A stretch of DNA of 64,000 nt from Bacteroidia bacterium (GTDB taxonomy: Bacteria > Bacteroidota > Bacteroidia > B-17B0 > Aurantibacillaceae), in NCBI GenBank assembly GCA_022841465.1, contig JALHRL010000001.1, positions 186,001 through 250,000 of the forward strand, written 5' to 3'. A model generated the notes under the pieces. The model searched no databases. It worked only from the letters and a program-made list of their open reading frames with translations, and was not told the DNA's origin. Made by a program: the position numbers and the translations under genes. Below are positions 46,090 to 55,462 of this stretch, in pieces. The number at the start of each line of letters is the position of its first letter. The first letter of the stretch is position 1.

Positions 46090-46641
46090 TGATTCTCTTT
46101 TAGTTTGCATTAGAAAAACCCAAAAAATGCAGATTTAATTGCTTTATTTTAACTTTGGTTAATTGCTCCATAACTGTATCTCAAACTTGAAATTTTGTCC
46201 CTAAATACCCCTTGAATACATCCTAATAAGTGAACCGATGTTTTCAATTACATCGTAAACTTTAAAATGATGTTTCTAACCTCATCGCAATTTTTAAAGA
46301 ACTTTTTTTAACTCTATCGTAGTATGCAAAAATCGCTCCGTAAAGTGAAAATAGAAGTTTATAAAAGTGAAAATAATGCTATCAAAACCTAAAAAATTCG
46401 ATAGATAATTTTATTACCAATAGAATTATTAAAAAGCAAAAATAATCTAAGAAATACAGTATCAATTAAAATTCAGTTACATTCATCGAGGTTAAATATC
46501 CGCTTAGTTGCGTTTTTTCTTAAATTAATTTTGTGTAAAAAAAAGCTAAAAATAGCAAACTTAATATATTGATAATCAATCATATAAGCGAATTATTTTG
46601 TATATTTGTTCTGTGCCATTTTTAGCAAAAAAAAATGGACT
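46090..46641. other. 552-base gap before the recombinase operon, with imperfect 32-bp repeats
   Basis: No gene is credible. Two and a half imperfect 32-base units start with CATCG at 46251 and 46283, and TATCG at 46315; the first two share about 21 of 32 bases. The right end holds the recombinase promoter. The repeats may be recombinase-binding or regulatory sites; the match is weak. Confidence 0.4.
46601..46608 (+). promoter_or_regulatory. -7 element of the recombinase operon
   Basis: TATATTTG fits the Bacteroidota -7 consensus TAnnTTTG, 34 bases before the first start codon. No -33 TTTG at ideal spacing was found. Confidence 0.5.
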
Positions 46642-46930: not shown

Positions 46931-48532
46931 ATGAAAAGAAGAGCAATTATTTACATTAGAGTATCAACCGATGAACAAGCCGATAAAGGTTACAGTTTAA
47001 AACATCAGTTAGAACGATTGGAAAAATATTGCGAACTACAAAATATTGAAGTAGTTGCAATTTATAAAGAGGACTACTCTGCAAAAACATTTAATCGCCC
47101 CGAATTCACAAAGTTATTAGCAACACTAAAGAAACATAAAAACTATGCCGACTTGTTGTTGTTTACAAAGTGGGATAGGTTTTCACGTAACGCTGGTGAT
47201 GCTTACAGCATGATTAGCCAATTAAACAGATTAGGAGTTGAGCCTCAAGCAATGGAACAGCCATTGGATTTAGCTATCCCTGAAAATAAAATTATGTTGG
47301 CATTCTATTTGGCAGCACCCGAAGTAGAAAACGATAGAAGGGCATTAAATGTTTTGGTTGGTATGCGCCGAGCAAGAAAAGAAGGACGCTGGATGGCAAC
47401 AGCACCAAAAGGCTATAAGAACACACGAGATGCGTTGAACAATAAAATTATTTTACCAAGTGATGATGCCATTTATATCAAATTCATTTTTGAAGAATTA
47501 GCAAATGGTATTTATAATATTGAACAAGTAAGAAAAATGGCAGCCGATAAAGGCTTTGATTGTAGCAAAAACAATATGTGGGTATTAGTTCGTAACCCTG
47601 TGTATTGTGGTAAGATTCAAGTACCTGCATACAAGGATGAGCCTTCGGATATTGTAAATGGAATGCACCCTCCTATTATTTCTGAAGAACTATTTTATAA
47701 AGTACAAGATATTTTAGATGGTCGTAAACGAAATGTACCCATGAAGAATACGGCAAAAGATGAATTGCCTTTAAGAGGCTTTTTGGTATGCAAAAGTTGT
47801 GGCGAAAAATTAACCGGGAGTGCATCAAAAGGGAGGACGGGTAATAGATACTTTTATTACCATTGCAAAAAGGGATGCGGAGAACGTTTTAAAGCCCCTG
47901 AAGCTAACCGTATATTTTTAAACGAGTTATTAAAGTTTGAGTTTAAACCACAAGTTATTGATGCTTACTATAAAATAATGCACGAAATGTTTAAGTCAAA
48001 CGGAGAGAATAAAAGTCAAGCCATAAAATCAATAAATACCGAAATTAACTTGAATAGGGAACGTATAAATAAAGCCCAACAAATGATGTTAGACGGTGAT
48101 TTAAGTTCGGCAGAGTTTAGGAACATCAAAGCTCAATTTCAGCCTGAAATAGATAGATTATCTCGTAAGGTTATTGAAGTTGCTAGTTTAGACGCTAACT
48201 ATAAAAGATATATGGATGGGGGTTTTAGTTTATTGAAACACTTTGCCAGTCAGTACGAAAGGGCAAATTTAGACACTAAGCAAAAACTAATTGGTTCGAT
48301 TTTTCCTGAGAAATTAGTTTTTGAAAATAATGAATATCGAACCAAAAATATGATGAGTGTTGTTTACAAAATATGTAGTAAAATCAATGCTTTTGGGGCA
48401 AATAAAAATGGGACTGATGTTGATTTCTCAACTCAGTCCCATCGGGTGAGCCCCATAACATTCATTTCGAACGAATTACTTGCCGATACTAAAGAAATGG
48501 CTGAATTATACGATTTGTTCTTTTCTGAGTAA
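46931..48532 (+). CDS. Large serine recombinase
   Basis: 533 residues. Resolvase-like catalytic domain with Ser12 in AIIYIRVSTDEQ, and arginines in TKWDRFSRNAGD. A recombinase domain (GYKNTRDALNN) and a zinc ribbon (CKSCGEKLTGSASKGR ... CKKGCGERF) follow, with coiled coil near 345-400. It integrates or excises DNA at att sites without repeats. It probably mobilises the neighbouring defence genes or the whole accessory region. The 3' end carries an unusual hairpin (48395-48454). Confidence 0.9.
   Translation: MKRRAIIYIRVSTDEQADKGYSLKHQLERLEKYCELQNIEVVAIYKEDYSAKTFNRPEFTKLLATLKKHKNYADLLLFTKWDRFSRNAGDAYSMISQLNRLGVEPQAMEQPLDLAIPENKIMLAFYLAAPEVENDRRALNVLVGMRRARKEGRWMATAPKGYKNTRDALNNKIILPSDDAIYIKFIFEELANGIYNIEQVRKMAADKGFDCSKNNMWVLVRNPVYCGKIQVPAYKDEPSDIVNGMHPPIISEELFYKVQDILDGRKRNVPMKNTAKDELPLRGFLVCKSCGEKLTGSASKGRTGNRYFYYHCKKGCGERFKAPEANRIFLNELLKFEFKPQVIDAYYKIMHEMFKSNGENKSQAIKSINTEINLNRERINKAQQMMLDGDLSSAEFRNIKAQFQPEIDRLSRKVIEVASLDANYKRYMDGGFSLLKHFASQYERANLDTKQKLIGSIFPEKLVFENNEYRTKNMMSVVYKICSKINAFGANKNGTDVDFSTQSHRVSPITFISNELLADTKEMAELYDLFFSE
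48395..48454. other. Nested hairpin in the 3' end of the recombinase gene
   Basis: TGGGACTGA (48409-48417) pairs with TCAGTCCCA (48433-48441), inner GTTGA with TCAAC around a TTTC loop; an outer GGGGC...GCCCC pair brackets it. This is a nearly continuous 14-bp stem inside coding sequence. It may be an attachment-site remnant, an RNA element or a processing site. Confidence 0.6.
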
Positions 48533-48613: not shown

Positions 48614-49498
48614 TTAACTCTTAACGATAATTCTAGTTCTCGTTTTCTTACTTTCTCCTTTAGGGAATATTAAAACAAAGCCATTGAAGGTATTATTAAA
48701 AAAGTGGTAATGAAAATCGTTTTTTCCATTTGCCGTATCAAGGTTAATGGTTCCGTCCAGTTTCATTCGCTTATTAATTGAATGATCCTTCATAAAAGCC
48801 CATTTATAACCAAATTTTTCCGGCCATGAAATGTGCCCAAATTCCTTTGCGAAAGGTGTTGAGTGAAAAGCATTTCTGAAATTACTATTAACAACCTGAC
48901 CTTTTTTATTTAAAGATTCTAAAACCAATAATGCACATCTATGCTTTGACGTTTCGACATATCTTCTTAAAGTGGCATGACCTGATGCACCAAAATGCTT
49001 AGAAACTTGAAGAGCAGATGGAATGCCAAGTTCATATTTTTTCACTTCGTTTACAAACCTATCATTTTGGAATAATGTAATAGAAGCAAAATAATTGGCT
49101 TCGGCCTCAAATTCCTCAGTAATATCTGGATCAAGGGTTTCATCATCATCTAAAAATTGTAATGTTTGTTTTTGCCACGGCAAAACGCTATGCCCGGTTT
49201 CGTGCAACTTAACAAAAGATTGCCTACTTTCTTTTTGCTCAAGGTCAAGATAAATAAGCTTTTCTGATCGATCTAAAAACCCTCTGACTTTTGATAAACC
49301 CGATTTTAATGCGTCTGAAAAAAAGAAAGTTTTATACTTTTTTTCTAAAGACTTTAAATCAATTCCTTCGGCAATTACTAAATCTGAATACTGAATAATT
49401 TTATCAATTGGGGTAGGGAAAACATCTAGTGATTTCGATCCCCTTAGTATTTCATGCGAAATATTTTCTATATCCTTTTTCGATTGTAATTGCTCCAC
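48614..49498 (-). CDS. capP: CapP-like ImmA/IrrE-family metalloprotease
   Basis: 294 residues, GTG start two bases after the capH stop. HExxH zinc motif KLHETGH (H99, E100, H103) and the third ligand in EEFEAEANYFAS (~129-139). The C-terminal ~110 residues are a separate beta-rich domain (FGYKWAFMKDHSINKRMKLD). In published CapH-CapP modules of CBASS operons, CapP cleaves CapH when single-stranded DNA signals damage, releasing transcription. Order, size and divergence from the CBASS operon fit that role. Confidence 0.8.
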   Translation of the reverse strand: MEQLQSKKDIENISHEILRGSKSLDVFPTPIDKIIQYSDLVIAEGIDLKSLEKKYKTFFFSDALKSGLSKVRGFLDRSEKLIYLDLEQKESRQSFVKLHETGHSVLPWQKQTLQFLDDDETLDPDITEEFEAEANYFASITLFQNDRFVNEVKKYELGIPSALQVSKHFGASGHATLRRYVETSKHRCALLVLESLNKKGQVVNSNFRNAFHSTPFAKEFGHISWPEKFGYKWAFMKDHSINKRMKLDGTINLDTANGKNDFHYHFFNNTFNGFVLIFPKGESKKTRTRIIVKS

Positions 49499-49500
49499 TC

Positions 49501-49848
49501 TTATTTCTTAGACTTTAAGAATTTAATAAAATTAACTATTTCTTTCTCTTCATCTGTAGATAATTTATCTTTATAAAAAGCAATTTCTTTTTCAAGAGTG
49601 CTTTGTGGTTTTTCTTCAGCTGATTGACTATTTTTTTCTATAATTCCAGCAGCAGTTAATAAAACATTAAGATTGATTTTATAAACGTTTGCTAATTTGT
49701 ATAAAACGTTTGCCGATGGTTTTTTTATTTTATCATTTTCAAGCTGACTTAAATAAGCATTAGAAATGCCTGTAGATTCTTCAACTTCTCTAAGAGTTAG
49801 GGAAACATTTTCTCTTGTACTCTTTAGAGTTTTACCTAGTGTTTCCAT
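49501..49848 (-). CDS. capH: CapH-like XRE repressor
   Basis: 115 residues: HTH_XRE at ~8-62 (LTLREVEESTGISNAYLSQL, ENDKIKKPSANVLYKLANVY), then a short linker and a C-terminal helix (EKEIVNFIKFLKSKK) probably for dimerisation. Small size and co-transcription with the protease suit the CapH type that CapP cleaves. Its promoter and that of the CBASS operon share a motif (see regulatory features). Confidence 0.8.
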   Translation of the reverse strand: METLGKTLKSTRENVSLTLREVEESTGISNAYLSQLENDKIKKPSANVLYKLANVYKINLNVLLTAAGIIEKNSQSAEEKPQSTLEKEIAFYKDKLSTDEEKEIVNFIKFLKSKK

Positions 49849-49862
49849 GATTTATTTTTTTA

Positions 49863-49892
49863 TAAAGGTACGAAATAATCTAAATCTATCAA
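49863..49892 (-). promoter_or_regulatory. capH promoter with candidate operator
   Basis: On the minus strand TTG (49890-49892), 19 bases, TACCTTTA (49863-49870), one base off the TAnnTTTG consensus. The spacer contains the inverted half of the shared motif (AATCTAAAT on the plus strand, 49877-49885). Confidence 0.65.
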
Positions 49893-49930
49893 GCCTTGAA
49901 ATAAATTTTAATAAAAATATATCGAAATGC

Positions 49931-49961
49931 TTGCGTAGTAAATTTAGATTTTGTATCTTTG
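49931..49961 (+). promoter_or_regulatory. Plus-strand promoter, probably of the CBASS operon, with candidate operator
   Basis: TTG (49931-49933), 20 bases, TATCTTTG (49954-49961), an exact -7 consensus. The spacer contains ATTTAGATT (49942-49950), the inverse of the capH-side motif. Aligned, the two promoters read GCTTG..TAG....TTTAGATT..GTA.CTTT. It would give a ~465-base leader before the CD-NTase gene; a nearer promoter cannot be excluded. Confidence 0.6.
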
Positions 49962-50107
49962 TACTGTTTTGATGAAATATGTCCTTTTACTACCGAAAAT
50001 CCAAAATGGCAGACTAAAACTAACAATTTGTCGGTAAACAACTAAATAAATAGTCAAATTAACAAAAATTAAGAATGGAATGGTTTATGAAAGTATAACA
50101 GTATGTA

Positions 50108-50201
50108 TATAAAAACAAAAGTGAGCCTACCTAGCTCACTGTATTGTTAAAAGTACATACGCTCTAAAAAATATTGATTGTAGGTAACTTTTTCGATTCG
50201 A
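50108..50201 (-). ncRNA. Candidate small RNA antisense to the CBASS leader
   Basis: A consensus promoter on the minus strand (50207-50237) is followed by ~95 bases without a reading frame of note and a terminator: GTGAGC pairs with GCTCAC (50121-50139), then TTTTGTTTTTATA. It would be antisense to the long 5' leader of the CBASS mRNA. I could not match it to a known RNA family; it does not resemble SRP RNA. Confidence 0.5.
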
Positions 50202-50206
50202 GACCG

Positions 50207-50237
50207 CAAAAGTAACAAAGCATTTGAATAAAACAAA
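50207..50237 (-). promoter_or_regulatory. Consensus promoter of the antisense small RNA
   Basis: On the minus strand TTTG (50234-50237), exactly 19 bases, TACTTTTG (50207-50214): a full match to the Bacteroidota consensus. Confidence 0.65.
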
Positions 50238-50431
50238 TTCTCCCCCCTATCAAAAAATTTCCCCGAGCACAACATAAATTATTTTACAAAAAAAGTAAAA
50301 GGTAAATAAATAGCATCCGGATTGTTGTGCAATCCCCAGTAGAAAAATAGTAAGGCATTTATGCTGAACAAATGTGTCGTAAAATTTTGCGGCATTAATA
50401 AATAACGTTTAATAAATAAAAATTATAATAA

Positions 50432-51463
50432 ATGAGTACAGTTATACAATCACAGTTTTATAAGTTTCATGATACAATAAAATTAGAAGCTATCGATAAT
50501 AAACAGGTTATTGAAAAGAGAGATATGCTAATCGAAGAGATTAAAGCGTATCTAAAAAAGAAATCAGAAGAAAGTGGCAAACCCCTAATTACTTTCTCAG
50601 TTTTTAATCAAGGTAGTTACCCTATGGGTACGGGTAATAAACCTGCGAATGATAAAGATGATTATGATATTGATGCGGGACTTTTGTTTAATTTATCGAA
50701 AGATGATTACACTCCTTTAGAAGTAAAGAAATGGGTATTTGAAGCATTGGACACAAAACAGTTTAGAACTGTTCAATGGAAAAAACCATGTATTCGTGTT
50801 CAATATATTGAAGATGGTTTTCCGAAATTTCACATCGATTTTGCTGTTTATTCCGATGGGAATACAGATACGAAAACGTATATCGCTAAAGGAACACCTA
50901 CTATTTCTAAAGACCAAGTTAAATGGGAGATTTCAGAACCAAAACGCCTGAAAGAGTTAATTAACGGGAAATATACAGACTCCCTTGATAAGAGTCAGTT
51001 TATCAGAACCATTCGTTATTTCAAAAGATGGAAGGACAATAAATTTGATTCTGTAAATGGGAAACCAACCGGAATAGCTTTAACCGCCCTTGCTTACAAT
51101 GGCTTTAAACCTTATACTAAGGAGTACTTTAATGGTCAGGAAAATATCCAGGATTTAAAAGCGCTGATTGATTTTACAAATTATATCATAGGTCAGTTCA
51201 GTTGGAAAAGGATTGAGGCTAAATTACCAGTACCTCCATACAATGACCTGTTTAAAAAAATGACTGATGACCAATGCACCGTTTTTAAAGAAAAACTTCA
51301 AAAATTAAAAGAGGTTTTAGTAGCCGCTCAAAACGAAGCCGATCCACACGAAGCTTGTAAAATTCTAAAGAAAGAGTTTGGAGATGATTTTCCAGTCCCC
51401 CCAAAAGAAGAGACTGCGCAAAACAGAAAAAGAGCTGTTGTAGGAACTAACGAATCTGCGTAA
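50432..51463 (+). CDS. CD-NTase, cyclic (oligo)nucleotide synthase of CBASS
   Basis: 343 residues. Nucleotidyltransferase motifs: GS of GSYPMGTGNKP (G61-S62), first metal ligands DYDIDAG (D79, D81), third Asp D136 in KFHIDFAVY. A helical OAS/cGAS-type C-terminal domain follows. It makes a cyclic nucleotide signal on phage infection. The C-terminus ends KRAVVGTNESA, a flexible tail; in type II systems Cap2 conjugates the CD-NTase C-terminus to targets. The product is unknown; SAVED effectors usually bind cyclic trinucleotides. The stop overlaps the next start (TAATG). Confidence 0.9.
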   Translation: MSTVIQSQFYKFHDTIKLEAIDNKQVIEKRDMLIEEIKAYLKKKSEESGKPLITFSVFNQGSYPMGTGNKPANDKDDYDIDAGLLFNLSKDDYTPLEVKKWVFEALDTKQFRTVQWKKPCIRVQYIEDGFPKFHIDFAVYSDGNTDTKTYIAKGTPTISKDQVKWEISEPKRLKELINGKYTDSLDKSQFIRTIRYFKRWKDNKFDSVNGKPTGIALTALAYNGFKPYTKEYFNGQENIQDLKALIDFTNYIIGQFSWKRIEAKLPVPPYNDLFKKMTDDQCTVFKEKLQKLKEVLVAAQNEADPHEACKILKKEFGDDFPVPPKEETAQNRKRAVVGTNESA

Positions 51464-53172
51464 TGGAAAAAAATAAAGTAGCCGAGGTGATTAATCACCT
51501 CGGCATATTTAAAAACATAAAGGAATTTACTGGTTCTCTTCTTAAAAAGAAGGAGCTGGATTTTGGTTTTTTCTTTTTGGATAAAATAGCAGAAAAAGAT
51601 GTGGAGGTTATTATTGGATTTAATAAAAATTTTCCGCTTTCTATGCCACAATATTTTATTAAGGATTATGACAACTTCGTTTTTATTCCACATATTGAGC
51701 GTGACGGAAAGGTTTGTTATACCCATGATGATTACGTTTATTTAAATGCCGAAGATCCTGAAGGGATTATTCAAGAAACATATAACCTGACTAAAGCAAC
51801 CATTGAAAAGGGGTTGTTAAAATCTAATTTTATAGATTTCATAAATGAGTTTGAAGCGTACTGGAATAGAATTGATGGTTGTGAAACTATATTTGGAAAT
51901 ATAATTATTCCGAATGAACCAACATTAATTAAAATAGGGTACAATGAAAATAAACGCTTTGCTGTTTCAGAAGAGAATGGATGCATTAATCAAATACACA
52001 GATTCACAAATTTAAATGATAAAGGGGTAACTTATAAGAATAGTATAATAATACCTTTTAGTGTTAGCAGTGACTTTATTCCACCGAGATATAATGAGCC
52101 TCTAACGATAGAGTATTTGAAAGCGATTATTGATTTACTCAATGATAAAGAGAAACAAAAATTAGCTAAGATAAGTAGTGGTTTAACTAGTTCCGAACTA
52201 TATGTTTTATTTTGCTTTAAACAAGTTAATGGTAACCACTCTTTGTTTGGCGTTAAGTTTTCTAATATAACATCAAGTGGTTTTGTATTAACTGCGGAGG
52301 AATTTAAAGGAAAAATAACGCCTATAAATATTCATAGGCTAGATAAAGAATACCTCTATAAGAGAGGTGGAAACGGGTTGTCCACATTTGATAAAAAAGG
52401 GCTCATTATAGGAGGAGGGTCTATTGGTGGCTTTATCTCAGAAGAACTTGTGAGAAATGGTTTTTTTGATTTAACTATTGTTGACGGAGATATTTTATCT
52501 AGTGACAACTGCTATAGGCATTTAACAGGTTATAATTACATTGGTAAAAGTAAAGCATTAGCGATAAAAGAAAAAGTTGAAAGGTACTTCCCTCACAGTA
52601 ACATTACTGAGGTATCTGATTCGATTGAAAACGCTATTGCTAAAAAGAAGATCAATTTCAATGATTATGATTTTATAATTATAGCTACGGGAAATGTTAC
52701 AATTAATACTTATTTGAACAGTCTACTTAATAAGAATCATTTAGGTATCCCTGTTTTTTATACATGGAATGATCCTTATGGTATTGGTGGACATTGCCTA
52801 GTAACAAACATAGAAAAAGCGGGCTGTTATTCTTGTATATACACTAATGAGAATTTTTACAATATGGCATCCTTTGCCCATCAAAATCAACCCAAGTCTT
52901 TTCTTAAAACGATATCAGGCTGCGGATCTATTTATACCCCTTATGGTTCAATGGATTCAATGCAAACATGTTTGATTGCCATAAAAAAAGTTATAGACGT
53001 AATGAATGATTCAACTGAAAAAAACGCAATATATTCATGGAAGGGAAAATCTAATATATTTTTAGCAGAAGGTTATAATTTATCTGCAAGATATAGTATG
53101 GCAGAATCTGAATTAGCAGAGCGCAGTTATGCGTTTGAGAATAAACAATGTAAAACCTGCCAAGTAATATGA
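51463..53172 (+). CDS. cap2: Cap2, E2-E1 fusion of type II CBASS
   Basis: 569 residues. The N-terminal E2-like domain has its candidate catalytic Cys at C85 (GKVCYTHDD). The middle is a linker; residues ~300-569 are a ThiF/E1 adenylation domain with IIGGGSIGGFISEELVRNG and the acidic TIVDGDILSSDNCYR. Candidate E1 catalytic Cys is C487 (SGCGSIYTP). Zinc cysteines C455/C458 and C563/C566 (QCKTC) are visible. Cap2 primes CD-NTase by ubiquitin-like conjugation. Overlaps cap3 by 4 bases (ATGA). Confidence 0.92.
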   Translation: MEKNKVAEVINHLGIFKNIKEFTGSLLKKKELDFGFFFLDKIAEKDVEVIIGFNKNFPLSMPQYFIKDYDNFVFIPHIERDGKVCYTHDDYVYLNAEDPEGIIQETYNLTKATIEKGLLKSNFIDFINEFEAYWNRIDGCETIFGNIIIPNEPTLIKIGYNENKRFAVSEENGCINQIHRFTNLNDKGVTYKNSIIIPFSVSSDFIPPRYNEPLTIEYLKAIIDLLNDKEKQKLAKISSGLTSSELYVLFCFKQVNGNHSLFGVKFSNITSSGFVLTAEEFKGKITPINIHRLDKEYLYKRGGNGLSTFDKKGLIIGGGSIGGFISEELVRNGFFDLTIVDGDILSSDNCYRHLTGYNYIGKSKALAIKEKVERYFPHSNITEVSDSIENAIAKKKINFNDYDFIIIATGNVTINTYLNSLLNKNHLGIPVFYTWNDPYGIGGHCLVTNIEKAGCYSCIYTNENFYNMASFAHQNQPKSFLKTISGCGSIYTPYGSMDSMQTCLIAIKKVIDVMNDSTEKNAIYSWKGKSNIFLAEGYNLSARYSMAESELAERSYAFENKQCKTCQVI

Positions 53173-53642
53173 TGTCATTTCTACTCTCAAATAAAGGCAA
53201 AATAAAAATTTCAGATTATGCGTTTGAAAGGATGTCCAACTTCCGCCAAAATAATTCTGAGGATACTGAAGCAGGTGGAGTTTTGCTTGGACGATTTATT
53301 GTTAACTCAAAAGACATAGTTATTGATGATGTTAGTATTCCAATGATCGGTGATAAAAGAAGCAGATATTCATTTGTAAGAAATGCAAAATCGCATCAGC
53401 GAATCATCGATAATCAATGGTTTAAAAGTAACGGTACTTGTAATTATTTAGGAGAATGGCATACACATCCTGAATCTTATCCAGATTATTCAGGAGTGGA
53501 TATTGATAACTGGAAGGATAGATTAAAAAAAGATAGCTATTCGAGCAGATACCTTTATTTTATTATTCTTGGAATAATAAAATTAGAGATATGGGAAGGC
53601 GATAGAAGAACATTAAAATTTAAAAAACTAGAAAAAATATAA
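53169..53642 (+). CDS. cap3: Cap3, JAB/JAMM isopeptidase of type II CBASS
   Basis: 157 residues with a complete JAMM zinc site: E34 (TEAGGVLLGR), H98 and H100 in EWHTHPESYP, and S108/D111 (SGVD) giving HxHPx6SxxD. Cap3 removes the CD-NTase conjugate made by Cap2. ATGA-coupled to cap2; the effector starts two bases later. Confidence 0.92.
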   Translation: MMSFLLSNKGKIKISDYAFERMSNFRQNNSEDTEAGGVLLGRFIVNSKDIVIDDVSIPMIGDKRSRYSFVRNAKSHQRIIDNQWFKSNGTCNYLGEWHTHPESYPDYSGVDIDNWKDRLKKDSYSSRYLYFIILGIIKLEIWEGDRRTLKFKKLEKI

Positions 53643-53644
53643 AT

Positions 53645-55423
53645 ATGGCACAAGGATACGTAATAATTAAACATCAAATTTTTACAGAGATTTCTGATGA
53701 AACAGTTTTGGAGTTTTTACCTACTGGTAAAACTCCTAAGTATAAAATATTTGATATAAAGAAGGATATCATTAGCATGGAGAATATTCATCAGTTGGAT
53801 TCCTTCGAGTTTAGGGTTTATCAAAAAAATATAATTGAAAATGAAATTAAACCCTTTTTAAACGCTAATCCAGATTATAAGGTTTTATACTTTGGAACTG
53901 CAAGTATTCCGTTAGCACTGCACCTAGGGTATTGCTTTGGGTCATGGAAAGAAGTCGATGTATATTTGCTTCATCGTGAAAAAATGATTTGGAATTGGCA
54001 AGATGAAACTGGAGCAAAGGAATTAAAATTTAGTTCCAATTTTGTAAAAGAAGAATTTACAGGCCCAATAGATGTAATTTATAGAGTTGAGGCAACTTAT
54101 CATAGCCAAGATACCGATTTAAAAGAAGTCGTAGAAAATCCTTCTAAAAAAATTGACCTTAAACTTGATGTAATCGGAAAGGATGTATTTGGAAACCAAG
54201 AACAGCTAAAACATTTTGCACACCAATTCGCTTTGGGGATAGATACGATTGCAAATTTTTTACCTAATACAGATAAAATCCATTTATTCCCAACAGTCCC
54301 AGTTGGACTAGCATTTTTAATGGGAACTAAGATAAATCCAATGGTAACCAAACCGATTGTTGCATACCAATACAATACTAATCATACCCCAAAATACGAA
54401 CAGATATTAATTTTACAAGAATCTGATCAACCTGAAGCAATTATAACTGAAGAAGATGAGAAATTTATATTAGAGATTAGGGCTGAATTAAAAAATGAAT
54501 TAGAAAATAAAATTGCTCCATTTGTAAAGTTAAAAATTGAAGATCAGAAAAAGCATACCGATAAATTAGGTTGGGTTAAAACTGTATTAAGTGAAGGTAG
54601 TTATAACGAAATAGAAAGAGGTTATTGGAAAAACATTCCTGATATTTCACAAACAATTCTTTCGAATTCAAAATTAGTTGACTCGACTGATCTTGCCGGA
54701 GAAGGTTTTCATATTTCTGAAAATGGTGAATGGCAATTAACAGATCGGTTTATTTTTAACATAAAAAATCGTTTAAATAATGATAAATCCAAAGTTCTTA
54801 AAGCACTTCGGTTATTTGTTTTTCATGAAGCAATACACATTCATCAAAAATTAACAAGCTATACAGCAGAGAACGTAGGAAGATTTCCTAGGGTATTAGA
54901 GGAAGCTGATTACATAGCCGATGTTTGGGCCATGGTGCATGAGTATGCATTTGCTAAACTATATTATGCATCTGAAACGAATGATTTAATTTCTTTTTTC
55001 AAAGAATTGATTGATGTAGCAACAAAAACAATGTGGGCATTTGATGATTTAGATCCAAATGTAGATGAAATGCAAATAAGACGAGTAAATCGCTATTTAA
55101 TTTGGTATTGGATATTTCTTCAAATAGATGATAAAAAATGTAAAACCATTGACGATGTAATTAATGTTTTTGCTATCAAACCAGTATTAGAGATTAGGGG
55201 ATTGGATATAAGAGCTCAATCACAAAGAACTATTTTTAGGCTAACGAATTACAAAACAGAAGATTTAGAAATAGGATACTTTGACAGAAATGCTAGAATT
55301 CTTCGTGCTTCTAATTCAGGGGGTATTCAGTTACCTGAGTTAATAAAAGGGTTTAAAGAACGAAACGGGGAAAAAATAATCAAGCAATTGAAAGCTTGGC
55401 ATGATCAAATAAGAGAAAATTAG
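53645..55423 (+). CDS. SAVED sensor fused to C-terminal HExxH zinc metallopeptidase, CBASS effector
   Basis: 592 residues. Residues ~75-265 are a SAVED domain: VLYFGTASIPLALHLGYCFG and VDVYLLHRE in one half, IHLFPTVPVGLAFLMGTKIN and a tyrosine/aromatic end (PIVAYQY) in the other; these are the two CARF-like lobes that bind cyclic nucleotides. Residues ~380-440 hold a gluzincin-like site: FVFHEAIHIHQ (H394, E395, H398) and RVLEEADYIADVWA (E419 or E420 as third ligand). No nuclease, TIR or membrane domain was seen. The usual order is effector then SAVED; here it is reversed. Predicted: cyclic nucleotide binding activates a protease that kills or arrests the cell. Target unknown. Confidence 0.85.
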   Translation: MAQGYVIIKHQIFTEISDETVLEFLPTGKTPKYKIFDIKKDIISMENIHQLDSFEFRVYQKNIIENEIKPFLNANPDYKVLYFGTASIPLALHLGYCFGSWKEVDVYLLHREKMIWNWQDETGAKELKFSSNFVKEEFTGPIDVIYRVEATYHSQDTDLKEVVENPSKKIDLKLDVIGKDVFGNQEQLKHFAHQFALGIDTIANFLPNTDKIHLFPTVPVGLAFLMGTKINPMVTKPIVAYQYNTNHTPKYEQILILQESDQPEAIITEEDEKFILEIRAELKNELENKIAPFVKLKIEDQKKHTDKLGWVKTVLSEGSYNEIERGYWKNIPDISQTILSNSKLVDSTDLAGEGFHISENGEWQLTDRFIFNIKNRLNNDKSKVLKALRLFVFHEAIHIHQKLTSYTAENVGRFPRVLEEADYIADVWAMVHEYAFAKLYYASETNDLISFFKELIDVATKTMWAFDDLDPNVDEMQIRRVNRYLIWYWIFLQIDDKKCKTIDDVINVFAIKPVLEIRGLDIRAQSQRTIFRLTNYKTEDLEIGYFDRNARILRASNSGGIQLPELIKGFKERNGEKIIKQLKAWHDQIREN

Positions 55424-55430
55424 TTTTAAT

Positions 55431-55458
55431 AAAAAAGGCGGAATTTTCCGCCTTTTTT
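55431..55458. terminator. Bidirectional terminator of the CBASS operon
   Basis: AAAAAAGGCGGAA and TTCCGCCTTTTTT form a perfect hairpin with a two-base loop, seven bases after the effector stop. Confidence 0.9.
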
Positions 55459-55462
55459 ATTC

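Follow-up and report, generated by a model that had tools for sequence, protein, structure and literature searches.

Mirrored candidate CapH operators at the divergent promoters of a CapH-CapP-CBASS locus in a Bacteroidota genome

The intergenic gap between capH and a type II CBASS operon in a Bacteroidota genome probably carries two mirrored CapH operators, 54 bp apart, at which CapH dimers would repress both divergent promoters until CapH is cleaved by CapP, a reading drawn from sequence comparison. The locus lies in a 64-kb stretch of DNA (64,000 nucleotides; the window) from a 3.77-Mb genome (G000). The capH gene is directly upstream of capP on the minus strand, divergent from the plus-strand immune operon, and the gap from capH to the CD-NTase gene is 583 bp. 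The genes and the probable end of the operon are as follows:

48614-49498, minus strand: capP, a 294-aa M78/ImmA-IrrE peptidase (Pfam Peptidase_M78, 2.2e-7; PADLOC capP, 5.2e-19)
49501-49848, minus strand: capH, a 115-aa XRE-type repressor (Pfam HTH_19, 6e-15; PADLOC capH, 7.3e-12)
50432-51463, plus strand: CD-NTase (cyclase) of CBASS (PADLOC, 3.3e-112)
51463-53172, plus strand: Cap2-like E1-E2 protein (PADLOC, 6.2e-150)
53169-53642, plus strand: Cap3-like JAB protein (PADLOC, 3.8e-53)
53645-55423, plus strand: SAVED effector fused to a peptidase-like part (Pfam SAVED, 2.1e-35; PADLOC Effector/Peptidase, 3.9e-136)
55428-55461, no strand assigned: perfect 16-bp inverted repeat, the probable terminator of the CBASS operon

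The repressor is placed in the CapH family by its XRE-type HTH domain, its match to the capH model, the match to PDB entry 7t5u and its position beside CapP and the immune operon, with the reservation that the PADLOC HTH_VI model (3e-13) scores slightly above the capH model. The CapH family profile matches 7t5u at 1.3e-5, with other XRE structures scoring better, and also matches DdrO and ImmR structures; we take 7t5u to be the CapH HTH domain, CapH not being named in its PDB title. CapP has an M78/IrrE-like domain with an HExxH motif and is related to a solved CapP, as its profile matches PDB entry 7t5t, titled 'CapP toxin', and HE-GH is invariant in four of four CapP proteins (HETGH in the window). 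The plus-strand operon is assigned to type II CBASS on its CD-NTase, Cap2, Cap3 and effector, all four with PADLOC or Pfam matches. Bub operons are recognized by a multiubiquitin gene beside the E1 gene, and there was no multiubiquitin match among the eight window proteins scanned. The SAVED effector has an HEAIH motif in its C-terminal half, and its top PADLOC match is 'Effector/Peptidase'; it is a probable cyclic-nucleotide-activated metalloprotease. A large serine recombinase (46931-48532, plus strand) adjoins capP. It is possible that CapHP and CBASS form a mobile defence island; no att-like direct repeats were found within the two flanks examined, each flank being searched separately.

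The -33/-7 promoter consensus of Bacteroidota is TTG-N19..21-TAnnTTTG, and matches to it, together with the predicted operators, are arranged in the gap as follows:

49863-49892, minus strand: capH promoter, TTG(A)...TACCTTTA (TTG-N19), relaxed pattern match
49878-49895, plus strand: predicted operator A (capH side), ATCTAAATCTATCAAGCC, the minus strand reading GGCTTGATAGATTTAGAT, in which TTG forms the -33 element of capH
49931-49961, plus strand: operon-side promoter, TTG(C)...TATCTTTG (TTG-N20), strict pattern match
49932-49949, minus strand: predicted operator B, on the operon side, minus-strand sequence ATCTAAATTTACTACGCA, with a degenerate half, CTACGC
49962-50431, plus strand: predicted untranslated CBASS mRNA leader of ~470 nt, if transcription starts from the operon-side promoter

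The operon-side promoter is one of eight strict matches in 64 kb and the sole one of the TTG/TAnnTTTG type on the plus strand from capH to the CD-NTase gene; the capH promoter fits the relaxed form only (18 matches in 64 kb). A generic sigma-70 scan found neither divergent promoter, but this says little because Bacteroidota promoters use elements other than generic sigma-70. The original prediction described the two promoters as near copies, each with a 9-mer that together form an inverted repeat. Both 9-mers are present, one per promoter (AATCTAAAT at 49877 and ATTTAGATT at 49942), and the promoters align, albeit with a shift, the distance from TTTAGATT to the -7 box being 3 bp shorter on the operon side than on the capH side. 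The 9-bp inverted repeat is likewise real but by itself not beyond chance, since an inverted repeat of at least 9 bp arises in 16/300 shuffles of the 99-bp stretch and in 49/300 shuffles of the 124-bp gap. Compared with the motif described below, TTTAGATT is the predicted TTTAGA half-site plus two bases and not a whole operator.

The candidate operator was defined by comparison. An 18-bp near-dyad, TGCTTGA-n4-TCAAGCA, and its variants are common to six other Bacteroidota and ten alphaproteobacterial plasmid CapHP loci. Each operator would be a 16- to 18-bp imperfect dyad with the half-site GCTTGA or its variant TCTAAA, four bases and the complement, one end containing or abutting the -33 element and the remainder lying within the -33/-7 spacer. 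The -33 TTG of the capH promoter lies within the GCTTGA half-site, that of the operon promoter overlaps the site edge, and in both promoters the site occupies most of the spacer.

We scanned all 64 kb on both strands (127,966 positions) with motifs learned elsewhere. First, expectation-maximisation on the ten alphaproteobacterial gaps only, for which no alignability with the window gap was found, gave TGCTAAGTATGTCAAGCA (TGCTTGA.AT.TCAAGCA with symmetry imposed), and its top two positions within the gap are 49878-49895 (rank 19) and 49932-49949 (rank 403, which is not significant taken alone). Second, a motif learned from six Bacteroidota loci with the window withheld places operator B at rank 1 (49930 register) and operator A at rank 3 (49880 register). 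Operator A ranks first with both the pooled motif and a 10-site matrix, operator B ranking 6 and 3, respectively, and the mirrored 54-bp pair is unique within the window, at 15.7 bits versus 2.9 for the next best. Genome-wide, a degenerate operator pattern has five exact matches in 3.77 Mb, two of which are the window pair; two of the other three were looked at, and both are inside open reading frames. With up to one mismatch the loose pattern is hardly above control (77+102 matches versus 64+72). A near-perfect site at G000:C5:124336 was considered as a second target and rejected as a coding coincidence, because it is inside an open reading frame, where it codes for CLIYLDAF. A weak operator-like match at 46544-46561 (11.9 bits, rank 6 in 64 kb) is just upstream of the small gene preceding the serine recombinase.

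Relatives were gathered from several sources. A genome scan gave L002 (Flavobacterium, CapH 81%) and L003 (Crocinitomicaceae, CapH 69%), a family search of 87 genomes gave L007 (same genus as the window, CapH 60%), and 249 genomes of the genus of G240 gave three loci (L036/L072, L037/L073 and L038/L074). Plasmid records gave 26 matches, from which 15 regions were taken; the ten from Alphaproteobacteria served to build the motif, and L068, L059, L069, L070 and L071 were kept outside motif training and scanned afterwards. L004 and L005, with HTH proteins lacking CapP, were left out, as were weak CapP matches (G016 and G067 in the family, 13 in the phylum, and 18 places in 16 genomes in one further genome search). 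There were no CapP relatives in phages and viral contigs.

The search of related CapH-CapP loci that the original prediction called for finds that mirrored sites recur in relatives. The centre-to-centre offset is 54 bp in four of seven Bacteroidota loci (the window, L003, L073 and L074) and 50 bp in L007; L002 has a weak pair at 56 bp, L072 has none, and neither of these last two has a good mirrored capH-side site. L003 contains a perfect 22-bp inverted repeat, not reached in any of 300 shuffles. Among the ten alphaproteobacterial loci the offset is 29 bp in seven, 30 bp in one and 28 bp (weak) in one, with no pair in the remaining one. The predicted recognition region of CapH, ISNAYLSQLEN-x-KIK-x-PS, is nearly invariant among Bacteroidota CapH proteins. 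These loci are not all independent, as L073 and L074 are 81% alike and L058, L061, L062 and L064 are 80-85% alike; the window and L002 gaps are 73% alike, and conservation within Bacteroidota is partly common descent. The operator also precedes the HTH genes of the plasmid loci L068 and L059 (as TGCTTGACAAACTTAGCA in L068), which encode CapH-like regulators of Piwi/PD-(D/E)XK operons and have no CapP annotated beside them. A matrix scan of L069, L070 and L071 gave no convincing operator sites.

What survives of the proposal that one repressor shuts both promoters through a shared operator is therefore a site of common type at each divergent promoter beside capH, as indicated by the held-out scans and the mirrored layout in relatives; the 9-bp repeat is not itself the operator, and the arrangement is rather one of two mirrored copies. 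With paired sites on both promoters and in relatives of other phyla, one damage-cleaved repressor probably silences both. One CapH dimer per site would keep RNA polymerase off both promoters, and CapH would thereby repress the CBASS operon along with the capH-capP transcript that encodes CapH itself. Single-stranded DNA would then activate CapP, and cleavage of CapH by CapP would release both transcripts; passages of PMC13373217 describe ssDNA-activated cleavage of CapH by CapP for other CapHP pairs. We infer CapH binding, transcription starts and repression at the window sites from their sequences, and induction of the window CBASS by CapP cleavage by analogy with known CapH/CapP systems. A spacing of 54 bp is about five helical turns and puts both sites on the same face, so that cooperative binding or a loop may occur; the spacing may equally reflect promoter geometry.

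The alternative that best withstands these data, although we consider it unlikely, is that CapH only regulates itself, acting via operator A, with operator B decayed and CBASS constitutive or transcribed from elsewhere. The degenerate outer half of operator B (CTACGC) fits this, as does the ~470-nt leader between the operon-side promoter and the CD-NTase start, a length that makes another transcription start possible. However, it is the operon-side site that is better kept in relatives (7/7 Bacteroidota loci, versus a capH-side site missing or weak in three), and the plus strand has no further TTG/TAnnTTTG promoter from 49962 to 50432. Much less probable is a role of the conserved block as a promoter element or as the site of another host regulator: in all Bacteroidota loci the sites do overlap the -33 element and the spacer, but the motif also accompanies CapH in Alphaproteobacteria, whose promoter elements differ, precedes the two CapH-like regulators in L068 and L059, and is absent from the neighbouring RNA promoters of the same loci. 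Least probable of all is that the repeat arose by chance in A+T-rich DNA and regulates nothing, which would account for the shuffling result with the bare 9-bp repeat and the near-control counts of the loose pattern, but not for the held-out motif ranks, the unique mirrored pair, the conserved spacing, or the window pair being two of only five exact matches in the genome. Repression of both promoters through paired CapH operators is thus the reading we prefer.

The gap contains a further promoter that lacks the operator site, which is thus no general feature of promoters, and a candidate transcript:

50207-50236, minus strand: third promoter, a strict match in the pattern scan, pointing back to capH
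50108-50200, minus strand: candidate small RNA of ~93 nt, antisense to the CBASS leader, predicted from the promoter and a terminator-like hairpin

The terminator-like hairpin (50140-50120), with a T-rich tail, is 70-100 bp past the third promoter, and together with the strict promoter match makes a ~93-nt antisense small RNA possible. The candidate has no homologue in 50 related genomes. In six Bub-CapHP loci an RNA gene of 95-104 nt is at the matching position, but it is a different RNA. We found this conserved, structured small-RNA gene divergent from the multiubiquitin gene in 8/8 Bacteroidota Bub loci examined, with a Multi_ubiq gene beside it in each:

L002, 5733-5832: Bub RNA
L003, 5732-5828: Bub RNA
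L034, 9462-9562: Bub RNA
L035, 7681-7784: Bub RNA
L072, 5182-5285: Bub RNA
L073, 5384-5487: Bub RNA
L074, 2363-2463, minus strand: Bub RNA
L087, 4747-4841: Bub RNA

The Bub RNA is multibranched: besides its closing stem and a AGGUGAUAAGCCU hairpin that does not vary between loci, it has a third hairpin and a U-run terminator. Its stems vary with pairing kept (AGGG/CCCU versus GAGG/CCUC, and UUGAC/GUCAA versus AGAGG/CCUCU), as read from the alignment rather than by a formal count. A promoter of its own is found by the relaxed pattern in five of the six Bub-CapHP RNA loci, L003 giving no match. A covariance model trained on seven loci recovers L087, the eighth (62.2 bits, E 1e-11), and, at E up to 0.1, has no match in the window or among the alphaproteobacterial loci; the 93-nt candidate was accordingly rejected as a Bub RNA. 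An RNA-pattern search matched G240 alone among 395 genomes sampled across the phylum and seven of the 249 in the genus of G240, five of which (G240, G595, G615, G653 and G612) are real by promoter and terminator; G517 and G667 were rejected by the same check. The Bub operons of G240 and G612 lack CapHP at the locus and are preceded by an S8 peptidase and an ATPase, yet both have the RNA, which therefore tracks Bub rather than CapHP. Ten matches to the RNA pattern in viral contigs, none with a promoter or terminator by eye, were taken as chance. Rfam gave no gathering-score match in the window island or in L002, L003 and L007; at E up to 1 it returned L10_leader (26.8 bits, cut-off 44) and a snoRNA (17.2 bits, cut-off 40), also taken as chance. 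In the literature searched on bacterial ubiquitination-like operons and multiubiquitin domains we found no description of the Bub RNA.

CapHP faces a multiubiquitin operon in each of the six Bacteroidota relatives (Pfam Multi_ubiq, 6/6) and in the nine annotated loci of the ten on alphaproteobacterial plasmids, L061 carrying no annotation. A 17-row CapP tree groups the window, L002 and L072 (support 85/82) within the Bub clade of Bacteroidota (100/99); by this phylogeny the window CapHP is nested among Bub-operon controllers, yet it is placed on CBASS. A genome of the same genus (G033) has a CD-NTase 78% identical to that of the window and the same four-gene CBASS, 73.7% identical in DNA from 50417 onwards. 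In the G033 locus (L097, 3031-10120) the ~74% identity begins 15 bp before the CD-NTase start, the divergent HTH and M78 peptidase pair is a different one, and an extra 157-aa gene is at the operon head. Judged by this alignment the difference is a controller swap; with the same CBASS beside a different HTH and M78 pair, CBASS and controller are thus separate modules. A wider reading, which we put forward tentatively and regard as possible but doubtful, is that CapHP is a portable cassette that brings its own mirrored operator-promoter DNA at a spacing fixed for each lineage (54 bp for Bacteroidota and 29 bp for Alphaproteobacteria), a Bub-type cassette here being placed on CBASS. The Bacteroidota leader would host a divergent small-RNA gene (conserved and structured in Bub, unrelated in the window CBASS), so that the damage-induced mRNA would start as the antisense of a constitutive small RNA, a possible second lock.

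CapH-CapP control of CBASS was reportedly described by Lau et al. (EMBO J 2022). The passages on CapHP in PMC13373217, PMC10233336 and PMC10904395 contain no description of a CapH operator. The system is of a known kind, as these passages indicate; what is added is the operator pair and its fixed spacing, and novelty of the operator itself is not claimed. The window shares with known CapH-CapP systems of CBASS a gene pair divergent from the immune operon and an HTH repressor with an M78 peptidase (homologues of 7t5u and 7t5t), but its CapHP branch belongs to Bub controllers and its operator is a mirrored pair defined by comparison. According to passages of PMC13373217, 219/544 Bub operons carry CapW or CapHP; the nearest relatives of the window (L002, L003 and L007, CapH 60-81%) face multiubiquitin operons and have the same operator type, whereas the window has no multiubiquitin gene and the controlled operon is a type II CBASS. 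PprI/IrrE-DdrO of Deinococcus (passages of PMC10904395) and ImmA-ImmR of ICEBs1 (passages of PMC10233336) likewise pair a metallopeptidase with a cleaved XRE repressor in a DNA damage response, but differ in operator and regulon and, in those passages, have no CBASS adjacent. CapK-CapS and CapW, in passages of PMC13373217, are also swappable damage-responsive controllers beside CBASS or Bub, and CapS too has paired palindromes at two promoters; the proteins are unrelated and the operators unlike (TTAA half-sites).

Immune operons that kill the cell need silence until they are needed. A defined operator makes the model in which CapH shuts off two promoters directly testable, and would make CapH-controlled operons predictable from sequence alone and the exchange of controllers between CBASS and ubiquitin-like systems traceable.
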